In this document: in pieces, positions 39,841 through 43,733 of the stretch
How positions within the stretch are numbered: the stretch's first letter is position 1
Layout of the letters: the number at the start of each line of letters is the position of its first letter
Assembly (NCBI GenBank): GCA_017646805.1
Contig: JAGCLW010000014.1
Span: 1 to 64,000 of the forward strand
Origin: Paludibacteraceae bacterium
GTDB lineage: Bacteria; Bacteroidota; Bacteroidia; Bacteroidales; Paludibacteraceae
Direction: 5' to 3'
DNA: 64,000 bases
Notes under the pieces: model-generated
What the model was told of the DNA's origin: nothing
Database searches by the model: none
Seen by the model: only the letters and a program-made list of their open reading frames with translations
Translations under genes and position numbers: made by a program

Positions 39841-39852
39841 GGGAAAAATCAC

Positions 39853-39885
39853 AGAGACTTTTTTTATTAAAAGTCTCTTTTTTTT
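39853..39885 (+). terminator. Terminator after the LuxR-type gene
   Basis: AGAGACTT and AAGTCTCT form an 8-bp stem, extended by T-A pairs, and a T7 run follows. Confidence 0.85.
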
Positions 39886-39897
39886 GTAAAATATTTT

Positions 39898-39905
39898 TAC
39901 CTTTG
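39898..39905 (+). promoter_or_regulatory. -7 promoter element for the structured leader / restriction-modification operon
   Basis: TACCTTTG fits TAnnTTTG. It is the only such element I see between the LuxR terminator and the methyltransferase start. Confidence 0.58.
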
Positions 39906-39911
39906 TCTGCG

Positions 39912-40133
39912 TTGTTGAGCTGCATCAACAGCTATCATATTTTTATTTTTTAACTTGGGCTTAACGCTCTTATTCTTTTTATAGAAAATCGGCAAATTTT
40001 TTTAGAGGGAAGAATAAGATTGCGAGAGGTTCACGTCTGTATAAGACGTGAACCGTTTCGTACTTATTATCCTCAATGGCTTTGCCGAGCCTTCTATAAA
40101 TAATAAGCGACGAAACGGTTTGCGTCTTTTTTT
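39912..40133 (+). ncRNA. Structured leader or small RNA with mutually exclusive hairpins upstream of the type III RM genes
   Basis: No protein gene lies between 39841 and 40185; this stretch holds nested inverted repeats instead. First GTTGTTGA/TCAACAGC (39910-39931), then TCTTATTCTT/AAGAATAAGA (39968-39977 with 40010-40019), then a perfect 10-bp hairpin GGTTCACGTC/GACGTGAACC (40028-40037 with 40045-40054). The right arm of that hairpin continues as CGTTTCGTACTTATTAT (to 40070) and can instead pair with 40100-40126, which ends GGTTTGCGTC and is followed by T7. So one segment has two partners, and the second pairing is terminator-like. Either an attenuator for the following operon or a free small RNA (6S or Bacteroidales-1 type are the classes to test). 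Confidence 0.6.
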
Positions 40134-40185
40134 GTTTATTTTTAGAAAAAAGTGTTTGCCCATTCAAAAAACAAATTATTGACAA

Positions 40186-41814
40186 ATGGAACAAACAAAA
40201 CAATCACTTATCAACGAACTTAAACAACGTGTTTCGGACAGAATCTTGGAGCAGACCAACGCAGACTTGCTCATCAAGCTGATAAACAACGCCGATTCGC
40301 TCGACGAGGCGATAAATATTGCGGCTCTCGGCACAACCTACAAACGTACTGGCTTACACTTCGACAAACGTCTGGAGAAGATGAGCAACACCATCAAATA
40401 TTTCAAAAAAAACGAAACGCTCTCTTTCCACACCGACGACAACAAACCCACTCACAAACTTATCATAGGCGACAATTACGAAGCGTTGCAAAACCTTCTG
40501 ATACAATACCGTGGCAAGGTCAATGTGATTTACATAGATCCACCATACGGGAAAGACTCCATGGGCGAATTTGCCGCAACCAACTACAACAACGCCATCA
40601 CACGAGACAACCTCCTCTCTATGCTCTACCCACGTCTGCAACTCGCAAAGCAACTTTTGAGCGATGACGGGGTGATTTTTTGTTCGATAGACGATAAGAA
40701 TCAGGCGTATGTGAAGTGTTTGATGGATGAGGTGATTGGGGAAGGTAATTTTATTGCTTGTGCACCACGAAAAACAGGTGCTGGTGATGCTGCAACAAGA
40801 TCTTCTTCCGAACTCAGAAAACCTTTTGATTACTTGCTCATTTATAAAAGAGGAAATGACACAGAACTGCAAAAGAAAATTGTAGGAGAAAAAGAATATA
40901 AATATTGTGACAAGTTGGGTAATTATAAATTGGATAAGTTTCAAGCAAGTGGTTCTGACGCGACAAGAAAAGCACGTCCTAATTTATATTATCCAATTTA
41001 TGTAACTAAAAACAGCTTGTTATCATTAAAAAAGACAGAGGATTGTATAAAAACAATATTACCACAAAAAATTAATGGCGAGGATGGTCGTTGGATGTGG
41101 AAACCAGAAAAGTTCGAAAAAGACAAAGATGATTATCTTTTTTGCGATGGAACATGCATTTTTCGTAAGACATATTATGATGAAGATGAGGACCAAAATA
41201 TATATCAAGTAGAAAAAGCTTGGATTGATGGAGGCGAATTCCGAAATGCGAAAGGAACTTCTGATTTGAGTGAAATAATAAGTAAAAACATATTCAAAAA
41301 TCCAAAGCCAATAGCTTTAGTTGAGTGGTGTATAAATCTTGTACCTAAAAAGGATAATCAAATAATCCTCGATTTCTTTGGTGGTAGTGGTACAACTGGG
41401 CATGCTGTTCTTGACCTAAATCGTTCAGAGAAAAAAGAGGGAAATTTACTCGAAGATAGCCAAGAAGAAGGCAACCGCACCTTTATCCTTTGTCAGCTAA
41501 ACGAAAAGACAGAGACCACACCCAACGGCATCGCCTACGATGTGACTTCAAAGCGTCTTAAGCGCATCATGACCGGCGAATGCTACGACGGCTCAAAAGA
41601 CTTTAAGTGGCTCGAAAAGAATGAGCCTTACGGCGGCAACCTTGATGTCTATGAGATTGACAGCGTGAGCAACTTTGAATGGACAGAGGGCAAAACACCT
41701 TTCGACGTGATAGATGAAACGCTCTACGGCAAAGAGAAATTTGCGTCCGTGAGAGAGAAGATTGAGTGGGTTTGCGGCAATTTCGACAAAACGCAAAAGT
41801 ATCTGAAAAGCTAA
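40186..41814 (+). CDS. Type III restriction-modification DNA methyltransferase (Mod)
   Basis: 542 residues, beta-class adenine-N6 methyltransferase order: the catalytic DPPY at 118-121 (YIDPPYGKDS) comes first, then a variable target-recognition region (about 190-390), then the SAM-binding motif DFFGGSGTTGHAV (396-408). It methylates one strand of the recognition site and sets specificity for the Res subunit encoded 17 bases downstream. Composition is patchy: rows at the two ends are above 50% G+C while the central recognition region drops near 20%. This fits exchange of the recognition domain, well known for Mod alleles. No Shine-Dalgarno is seen. Confidence 0.93.
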   Translation: MEQTKQSLINELKQRVSDRILEQTNADLLIKLINNADSLDEAINIAALGTTYKRTGLHFDKRLEKMSNTIKYFKKNETLSFHTDDNKPTHKLIIGDNYEALQNLLIQYRGKVNVIYIDPPYGKDSMGEFAATNYNNAITRDNLLSMLYPRLQLAKQLLSDDGVIFCSIDDKNQAYVKCLMDEVIGEGNFIACAPRKTGAGDAATRSSSELRKPFDYLLIYKRGNDTELQKKIVGEKEYKYCDKLGNYKLDKFQASGSDATRKARPNLYYPIYVTKNSLLSLKKTEDCIKTILPQKINGEDGRWMWKPEKFEKDKDDYLFCDGTCIFRKTYYDEDEDQNIYQVEKAWIDGGEFRNAKGTSDLSEIISKNIFKNPKPIALVEWCINLVPKKDNQIILDFFGGSGTTGHAVLDLNRSEKKEGNLLEDSQEEGNRTFILCQLNEKTETTPNGIAYDVTSKRLKRIMTGECYDGSKDFKWLEKNEPYGGNLDVYEIDSVSNFEWTEGKTPFDVIDETLYGKEKFASVREKIEWVCGNFDKTQKYLKS

Positions 41815-41816
41815 AC

Positions 41817-41825
41817 GAGGAGGAG
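41817..41825 (+). promoter_or_regulatory. Purine-rich Shine-Dalgarno before res
   Basis: GAGGAGGAG ends 6 bases before the ATG at 41832. A match this strong is unusual in this window. Confidence 0.6.
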
Positions 41826-41831
41826 TAAGTT

Positions 41832-43733
41832 ATGTTACAAGAGGCTAAAGATTTACAAAACCGTGCGGTGACGCAATTGGTTAGCGCGCTTTCGCAAGGA
41901 AAGAAAGAGTACACCTTCCGCGCCCCAACCGGCAGCGGAAAGACCTACATGATGGCAGACTTCATGAATCGCATACTTGCTTTGCAAAGCAATGTGGTGT
42001 TTTTGGTGTCGTCGCTCTCCAAAAGCGAGCTGGCGGAGCAGAACTACAACTCCTTTTGCGCATTGAGCCAGAACGGAACATTCCCCCACTTGAATCCCTA
42101 TCTGATAAGTTCGGAGACAAGCGGAGAGGGCGCGTTGCATATCCCTACAGACTACAACGTCTATGTCTTGCCGCGAGACCTTTACAAGGAGAAGAGCCGA
42201 CTTAAAGAGGAAGGAACGTTTCTGAACTTTCTGCAAACAATAAAACAAGCAAGTAAATCAATTTATGTTATCAAAGATGAATGCCACATAGCGACAAAAA
42301 ATTTAAACGAACTAAATAAATATTTTTCCGTAATTATCAATTTTTCGGCAACGCCAAAATTATCACAAGGACAATTACCGGACGTAGAAATATCAAACAA
42401 TGATGCAGTAAAAGCAAAATTGATCAAAACAATCGAACATTCGGACAATGTAGAAAGTTTGGATTCAATAGAAAAGAAAAACAAAAATTTAGATGCGGCA
42501 CTTGATAAGTTTGAAGAAATAAAACAACATTACAACAACAAATTAGCGGTAAATCCGTGTTTTATCATTCAAATATCAAACAAAGACCAAGCAGAAGAAG
42601 AGTTGCAAAATGTGATTTTCCCTACCCTCAACAATATCAAACACCAAGATTTGAAGTGGGTTTACATTACGGGCGATAAGACGGGCAAAGGTTGCAAAAC
42701 CAATGACTCAGGACTAAATAAGTTGCCAGTATCAAAATGGAAAGAGTATATGAAGCCCAAAGAGTCGAGCATCTCTGTGATTATTTTCAAGATGGTGATT
42801 TCTGAAGGGTGGGATATACCTCGTGCTTGTATGCTTTATCAGGTGCGAGACACGAGAAGCAAGCAACTTGACGAACAAGTGATGGGACGTGTGCGTCGTA
42901 ATCCTCGATTGTTGGATTTTGATAAGCTTCCTAAAGATGCACAATATTTAGCTTGTACGGCGTGGGTTTGGGGAATCATGCCACAAGATATAGAATTGCC
43001 CAAACAAGTTCATTTGGTTCGTAATAGCGGAATAGAAGAAACGTTGAAAATATCTCCAACGAAATTAAAAAAAATTGCATCGTCAAGAACTTTTAATGTG
43101 GCAAAATTCATAAAAAAACAACGAGATAACCGATTGACACACAAAAGTATTTTTGAAATGCACCGCCAATTATCGACTTGCAACAACGAAATTCAAGAAT
43201 TGTGTTATTCGTATGCAAAAACCTTTGACAAATGGCGAAAATTCATCGAAAACATAGACAAAATAAAACAAAAATACAATTCGTATATCTGTGATTATCA
43301 AAAAAGTATGATTGTAGAAAATGCCGTCAGTTTTCCATTGGTGAGTTATTACAACAACAACGAAAAAACGCTCACCATCGACGATTGGATTTGGTGTCGT
43401 AAAGATGGCGATGAATTTTCGTTTGATAGTGATGCAGAAAAAAAATGGGCAGAATTACTAAAAGACATTCGTCAACAAGCAATCGGACAAACCAATTTGT
43501 TGGCGAACAATAAATTTCTTTGGGGCAAAAATTTTCCAATGAATTCTGAAATCAAATTTGAATATTTTTTAGATGGCATTCATTCTTCCTATCCCGACTT
43601 TATCATGAAAGATAAACGAGGAAAAATTCACATTTTTGAGGTAAAGAGCGTCAATCAATCAGCAAATATGACCATCAATACTGAAGAATATGAAAAAAAA
43701 GTATATGCATTAAAATCATGTTATACAGAATGA
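41832..43733 (+). CDS. Type III restriction enzyme helicase-nuclease (Res), cut short by an in-frame TGA
   Basis: 633 residues before the TGA. Superfamily 2 motor: Walker A APTGSGKT at 31-38, DECH at 149-152, INFSATP near 172, the motif V region ISEGWDIPRACMLYQVRD and motif VI QVMGRVRRN. The C-terminal PD-(D/E)xK nuclease is visible as D589 and E603-x-K605 (YPDFIMKD ... FEVKS). It works with Mod as an ATP-dependent endonuclease. After the TGA the same frame stays open for 41 codons to TAA at 43857, and that extension looks like a natural Res tail. Motor and nuclease residues are all kept, so the short form could still be active. Composition alternates along the gene as in mod. Confidence 0.9.
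   Translation: MLQEAKDLQNRAVTQLVSALSQGKKEYTFRAPTGSGKTYMMADFMNRILALQSNVVFLVSSLSKSELAEQNYNSFCALSQNGTFPHLNPYLISSETSGEGALHIPTDYNVYVLPRDLYKEKSRLKEEGTFLNFLQTIKQASKSIYVIKDECHIATKNLNELNKYFSVIINFSATPKLSQGQLPDVEISNNDAVKAKLIKTIEHSDNVESLDSIEKKNKNLDAALDKFEEIKQHYNNKLAVNPCFIIQISNKDQAEEELQNVIFPTLNNIKHQDLKWVYITGDKTGKGCKTNDSGLNKLPVSKWKEYMKPKESSISVIIFKMVISEGWDIPRACMLYQVRDTRSKQLDEQVMGRVRRNPRLLDFDKLPKDAQYLACTAWVWGIMPQDIELPKQVHLVRNSGIEETLKISPTKLKKIASSRTFNVAKFIKKQRDNRLTHKSIFEMHRQLSTCNNEIQELCYSYAKTFDKWRKFIENIDKIKQKYNSYICDYQKSMIVENAVSFPLVSYYNNNEKTLTIDDWIWCRKDGDEFSFDSDAEKKWAELLKDIRQQAIGQTNLLANNKFLWGKNFPMNSEIKFEYFLDGIHSSYPDFIMKDKRGKIHIFEVKSVNQSANMTINTEEYEKKVYALKSCYTE

Follow-up and report, generated by a model that had tools for sequence, protein, structure and literature searches.

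The type III restriction-modification genes in the analysed stretch of Paludibacteraceae DNA (64,000 nucleotides, in the following called the window) are preceded by a structured RNA of approximately 180 nt, located at 39953-40133 and equipped with its own Bacteroidota promoter and intrinsic terminator. From sequence comparison and computed folding we consider it likely, taking all kinds of input together, that this RNA is a cis-acting leader that subjects the mod-res genes to conditional transcription termination. Transcription of the gene behind the leader is probably governed by the choice between two competing folds of the RNA. The window leader belongs to a large family of such folded leaders, which occurs across the Bacteroidota ahead of defence and cell-surface genes and is apparently undescribed.

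Table 1 Features of the leader and its surroundings in the window.
Feature	Position	Strand	Description	Basis
LuxR-type regulator gene	end 39840		Upstream gene	Pfam GerE
Upstream hairpin	39851..39886	+	Likely terminator of the LuxR-type gene: AAGAGACTTT..AAAGTCTCTT, then T8	Sequence reading
-7 element	39898-39905	+	TACCTTTG, Bacteroidota promoter, exact TAnnTTTG	Sequence reading
S0	39957..39977	+	5' part folds into the small hairpin P0 (39957-39969); entire strand able to pair with S1	
V1	39978..39986	+	5' strand of junction-closing helix; partner V2 (40092-40100)	
H1	39985..40000	+	Arm AAAA-TCGGCAAA-TTTT; loop 39989-39996 complementary to H2 loop	
V3	40004..40010	+	Partner V4 (40068-40076)	
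S1	40011..40037	+	5' arm of antiterminator hairpin	Sequence reading, covariation, permutation test
S2	40045..40069	+	Partner either S1 (antiterminator) or S3 (terminator)	Coevolution of both pairings
H2	40078..40091	+	Arm GGC-TTTGCCGA-GCC; loop 40081-40088 complementary to H1 loop	
V2	40092..40100	+	3' strand of junction-closing helix	Covariation, permutation test
S3 and T7	40101..40133	+	3' arm of intrinsic terminator (40101-40126) and T-run (40127-40133)	
mod	40186..41814	+	Type III DNA methyltransferase	Pfam N6_N4_Mtase 8.6e-30; PADLOC MTase_III 5e-68
res	41832..43733	+	Type III restriction subunit	Pfam ResIII 6.8e-18; PADLOC REase_III 6.5e-24

Since the LuxR-type gene upstream of the leader is followed by a terminator-like hairpin of its own (Table 1), a new transcription unit appears to start at the -7 box, and the hairpin likely separates the leader from the upstream operon. 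Sequence reading from 40134 to the mod ATG revealed no further TAnnTTTG box. The first gene downstream of the leader is mod, which begins 52 nt past the end of the model, and both Pfam and PADLOC identify a type III restriction-modification system there, with N6_N4_Mtase in mod and ResIII in res, presumably the second gene of a mod-res operon.

The original prediction had placed a single -7 element and a set of nested inverted repeats ahead of mod, at coordinates that proved right, and had proposed that two folds compete of which only the second is terminator-like. In the window GGTTCACGTC (40028-40037) is exactly complementary to GACGTGAACC (40045-40054), and the bases of the latter also extend a longer stem, formed by 40045-40069 with 40101-40126 and followed by T7. 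The fold of the region 39905-40135 reached -77.4 kcal/mol (z = -6.7), and none of 200 dinucleotide-preserving shuffles was equally stable. When the RNA was cut before the second (last) arm, the first hairpin formed instead. It is clear that the competing hairpins are real and go beyond chance, as had been predicted.

From 5' to 3' the parts are arranged as promoter, S0 (with P0), V1, H1, V3, S1, loop, S2, V4, H2, V2, S3 and T-run. The comparison of copies supports a first fold in the form of a four-way junction, where S1:S2 would be extended by V3:V4 and closed by V1:V2, with H1 and H2 as side arms. The putative second fold consists of S0:S1 plus S2:S3 beside the T-run. The two are mutually exclusive because both need S1 and S2. 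The pairing of S0 with S1, the covarying helices V1:V2 and V3:V4, the complementarity of the H1 and H2 loops and the existence of many copies were all absent from the original prediction.

Compensatory changes, where both sides of a pair have changed, were present in 45 of the 54 pairs in an alignment of 73 sequences. In the same alignment standard pairs occupied 95.7% of the pair cells versus about 38-48% in controls with slid partners, and 706 cells had changed on both sides versus 100-170 with partners slid; these cells are non-independent events, and the counts lean toward the structure to which the alignment was fitted (two helices were used, and S2:S3 was fitted in at most three pairs). 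Such changes affected 4 of 4 pairs in the P0 hairpin, 5 of 5 in V1:V2, 6 of 6 in V3:V4 and 8 of 8 in the H1:H2 loop-loop pairing. A column-free test was carried out on 59 copies with less than 75% identity, comparing the duplex energy of a strand with its own partner to the energies with the partners from other copies. V1:V2, H1:H2, V3:V4, S1:S2, S2:S3 and S0:S1 all preferred the cognate partner (0 of 5000 permutations each), with the cognate V1:V2 partner being the best one in 45 of the 59 copies, and the S2:S3 terminator was found to coevolve (-23.7 versus -16.4 kcal/mol) though it hardly enters the fitted model. V4:V2, S0:S2 and S0:S3 showed no cognate preference in this permutation test, and a slight cognate excess for V1:V3 (3 of 5000, with energies of about -3 versus -2.4) marks the noise arising from relatedness.

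The paired columns contained 585 G-U versus 64 A-C combinations, which points to an RNA of the leader strand, although it was the model that selected this strand. Two further counts are independent of the pairs in the model: a TAnnTTTG box was present within 110 nt upstream in 65 of 100 homologues, where shuffling gave an expectation of 7.1, and a T-run was present in 100 of 101. An intrinsic terminator and a mutually exclusive antiterminator are both conserved and coevolve, with a promoter upstream and a gene directly downstream on one strand, and this combination supports the attenuator that the original prediction had offered as one of its two readings.

The loops of H1 and H2 in the window are perfectly complementary over 8 bp (8 of 8). 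Either the loops could kiss with both stems formed, or the two strands could be paired throughout as one rod. We favour the loop-loop contact because the H2 stem covaries in several copies and H2 folds on itself in 98% of the homologues versus 66% of shuffles. Outside the rod pairing, strong conservation is seen at AAA, GG and C, all of which are accounted for by the stems of H1 and H2. Against the loop-loop contact stands the stem of H1, which is short and built from A-T pairs only.

The energies of the two folds were computed for secondary structure alone, ignoring loop-loop and tertiary contacts, and on this basis the nested S1:S2 fold was the more stable one in 32 of 33 close copies, by 0 to 18.5 kcal/mol; the exception was the window copy, in which the terminator fold was 4.8 kcal/mol lower. 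In growing chains, computed for five copies, the probability of the S1:S2 antiterminator was near 1.0 until S3 emerged and stayed there in four of them, and in the window it dropped to 0.08 when S3 and the T-run were complete. Since S1:S2 is favoured both in the energies and during chain growth, the prediction is that transcription reads through by default and that termination should require input or time, with the window copy as an exception at equilibrium. The greater stability of the nested fold in nearly all close copies suggests that the terminator might rarely form without a factor, a point against conditional termination.

A course of events that agrees with these results is the following. 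Transcription would start just after 39905, and in the emerging RNA S1:S2 would form, after which the flanking helices would close the four-way junction (V1:V2, H1, V3:V4/S1:S2 and H2) with its pair of complementary side-arm loops. In the junction state S3 would be free, no terminator would be present and RNA polymerase would continue into mod. In the other state S0:S1 and S2:S3 would form next to the T-run, resulting in termination before mod. The element, its promoter and T-run, the gene orientation and both exclusive pairings with their coevolution were obtained by computation. From these we infer that termination takes place in vivo, that the read-through fold is the default and that the balance is shifted by some input, which may be a ligand, a trans RNA, a bound protein or the polymerase speed. 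It also speaks against conditional termination that the client genes lack a common pathway.

A BLAST search with the element against 41 genomes returned homologues in five other genomes. With a pattern built on the bases that are conserved best, 32 loci were retrieved from named Bacteroidales MAGs, and several of these genomes have two or three. Because the pattern demands invariant S1/S2 bases its conservation is biased, and the conclusions are based on the covariance searches, which had been proposed together with the original prediction. Model R1 matched in 162 of 300 genomes of the family to which the window belongs, and the broader model R2 in 157 of 393 sampled genomes of the order, covering 94 of 206 genera, and in 36 of 296 sampled genomes of the phylum; most of the genomes searched are metagenome assemblies, and the E-values are rough owing to a short calibration. 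Where type III mod genes follow, matches down to about 45 bits are positioned as expected ahead of them, which indicates that the model is specific at that level. Several copies per genome are frequent, and the genome of the window (G000) has eight R2 matches. The other copies in this genome are C66:572-744, C43:17441-17614, C4:2348-2525, C33:58920-59139, C21:4905-5129, C45:779-950 and C57:2366-2538, and those on C66, C4, C33, C43 and C21 lie upstream of small secreted-protein or hypothetical genes.

The nearest downstream ORF was on the same strand in 120 of 126 sampled copies, at a median distance of 48 nt, and the nearest upstream ORF was on the same strand in 83 of 120. Among the 115 downstream proteins, where the pattern-based set is over-represented, there were 12 type III methyltransferases, 6 SusC/RagA receptors and 3 EcoRI-type methylases, along with type IIG and type I restriction proteins, Dcm methylase, small HTH proteins, lipoproteins, LRR and TPR proteins, and exopolysaccharide and secretion genes. 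Restriction genes are one client class among several, and the earlier rationale that an attenuator would serve to limit Res expression leaves the family unexplained, as the leader also precedes SusC/RagA, lipoprotein, small HTH and other genes.

Conversely, when type III mod loci were collected by protein search, 17 of 29 had a leader directly upstream that was detected by the covariance model, and two more (L186 and L190) had a diverged leader that the model missed. The L186 mod gene is homologous to that of the window from 40226 on, with 96% DNA identity. The leader in front of it is another, diverged member of the class. The similarity of about 96% extends over mod-res (window 40226-42245 versus L186:1535-3555), and the L186 genome (G162) belongs to a different genus of the same family. 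Since a near-identical mod is found behind a different leader, leader and coding sequence appear to recombine separately, and the pair looks as if coding sequence had recently been exchanged beneath a leader that stayed in place.

Some loci have features of their own. A family of HTH proteins of 60-115 aa (pattern xHIGxxI..QxRsxxWLA..R.N.Y.IF.R..ID..LL..IS) is encoded behind the leader, the ATG lying at the T-run, in L018, L021, L028, L030, L043, L047, L100, L101, L107, L111, L119, L120, L130 and L170. Because the ATG abuts the T-run, the S2:S3 pairing could also hide the start codon of these small HTH clients. In the class-level relatives L174-L179 and L183 the leader lies 220-380 nt upstream of SusC/RagA receptor genes, and the upstream ORF is usually on the opposite strand, with an HTH-like protein in several cases (e.g. 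L175 and L177). L154 contains two near-identical leaders 1.1 kb apart (1249-1418 and 2376-2543), each before a paralogous secreted-protein gene, and the leader seems to have been duplicated together with its gene. An integron-like cassette array, which these two copies had brought to mind, was rejected because each copy comes with a paralogous gene of its own and because a promoter is linked to the leader.

The gene associations bear on another reading, where the RNA is a discrete sRNA of about 220 nt, ending at the terminator and acting in trans, and entry into mod is incidental. Its own promoter and strong terminator would suit such an RNA, and Bacteroides has multi-copy sRNA families, e.g. 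FopS with 14 paralogues (PMC11697453). The FopS/GibS RNAs resemble the leader in being multi-copy in Bacteroidota and linked to SusC-type genes, but by its published description FopS is trans-acting and consists of a single-stranded 5' stretch and a terminator hairpin (PMC11697453). Considering also that the downstream ORF is nearly always close by on the same strand, that the ATG of the small HTH genes abuts the T-run and that no other promoter precedes mod, we find a trans-acting sRNA unlikely. The original prediction had named the 6S and Bacteroidales-1 classes as candidates for a discrete RNA, and neither was recovered. Up to E = 10, nothing in 39841-40200 was matched by the 6S models, 6S-flavo included, and unlike a single-copy 6S RNA the leader is multi-copy with same-strand genes directly downstream; neither the window nor any of 22 diverse loci was matched by Bacteroidales-1 (RF01693). 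A cis leader agrees better with the gene association, and a terminated RNA of about 220 nt could be its by-product.

Conditional termination would include, as a special case that we weighed separately, a ligand riboswitch in which the junction and the loop-loop contact form an aptamer, and a metabolite or ion picks the antiterminator or the terminator. Many riboswitches are built in this way, as a four-way junction whose side-arm loops pair and which has a terminator platform. The leader shows this common anatomy together with strong covariation, and like terminator-platform riboswitches it has a structured 5'-leader domain overlapping an intrinsic terminator. Unlike them it has no Rfam match, and its clients (restriction-modification, SusC/RagA, HTH, lipoprotein, exopolysaccharide and secretion genes) have no metabolism or pathway in common and point to no common ligand. 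As the H1 and H2 stems explain the conserved AAA, GG and C and no large unpaired pocket was seen in the family conservation, a riboswitch appears rather improbable to us.

It could also be imagined that the structure is a constitutive partial terminator, or an mRNA-stabilising structure, that sets only the basal level of the downstream gene without any switching. The fold energies, which favour one state in most copies, would agree with this, but such a structure has no need for two mutually exclusive pairings that both coevolve, nor for V1:V2, V3:V4 or the loop-loop pairing, and we give it little credence. A DNA-level element, whose inverted repeats would be a site of recombination or transposition or an operator bound by the small HTH proteins, is very improbable even though the element is near-palindromic, scores weakly with the covariance model on the opposite strand of some copies and is present in many copies in some genomes, since the G-U pairs are strand-specific, promoter and T-run are conserved on one strand with an orientation bias, copies diverge inside one genome and blastn found no match in plasmid or phage collections (two queries, one copy each). 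A mobile DNA element was rejected in view of the strand-specific G-U pairs, orientation and copy divergence, and the repeats are not the dead mobile-element end that had been considered at the outset, as copies from one genome differ from each other, have a strand-specific structure and are linked to a promoter.

Returning to the conditional-termination leader, no family in Rfam 15 matched the element in the window or the 22 diverse loci at gathering or permissive thresholds, which for the window extended to E = 10. The single hit was DUF805b in L116, outside the element and downstream of the leader. This cis-regulatory RNA (L116:2946-2980, minus strand, 36.8 bits, above the gathering score) lies between the leader T-run and a type I restriction gene, putting two RNA motifs in series. 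The open-licence literature searched contained no description of attenuators before restriction-modification genes or of conserved Bacteroidota leaders of such kind. The leader is similar to trp-type attenuators (1:2 plus 3:4 versus 2:3) in having four alternately pairing strands, the last pair with the T-run being the terminator and the middle pairing the antiterminator, but it has extra covarying junction helices and a loop-loop pairing, and its clients are not biosynthetic. A trp-type leader peptide overlapping S0 was rejected, as an ATG ORF of 8-60 codons of any kind was present in 43 of 101 leaders and none was consistent. Antitermination in 5' leaders of Bacteroidota surface loci is known from UpxY/UpxZ at the Bacteroides capsule loci (PMC12632263), but UpxY is a dedicated locus-encoded protein, and no such gene follows the leaders in the annotated sample. 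Flavo-1 (RF01705) and Bacteroidales-1 are likewise candidate structured Bacteroidota RNAs (PMC2864571), but cmscan matched neither in the window or the 22 diverse loci, and Flavo-1 is placed sense or antisense indifferently (PMC9723704). One metagenome report describes three unnamed candidates from Bacteroidetes (HMP2_4205, HMP2_1032 and HMP2_1065) as palindromic, terminator-like and 80-132 bp long, two of them near TPR or TonB genes (PMC8040213); by that description, they may be fragments of the leader family. We conclude that the family is apparently new, that its kind, a conditional-termination leader, is known, and that its architecture is unusual.

We tentatively suggest that the leaders may form an ancient, Bacteroidota-wide class of bistable cis leaders, in which a four-way junction locked by loop-loop contact would exchange strands with a terminator, and which would have been recruited repeatedly to variable surface and defence genes (restriction systems, SusC/RagA, HTH regulators and lipoproteins), possibly for on/off heterogeneity or for a common stress-triggered response at the RNA level. 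Restriction systems, SusCD, surface proteins and EPS of Bacteroides are known to be phase-variable by DNA inversion (reviewed in PMC12632263). Because the same kinds of genes are concerned, control at the RNA level would be a counterpart to DNA inversion and a second, testable on/off route. The covariance model and the consensus structure make the leader class directly testable, and if the suggestion is true, many phage-defence and cell-surface genes of the Bacteroidota would be under one undescribed class of RNA switch.
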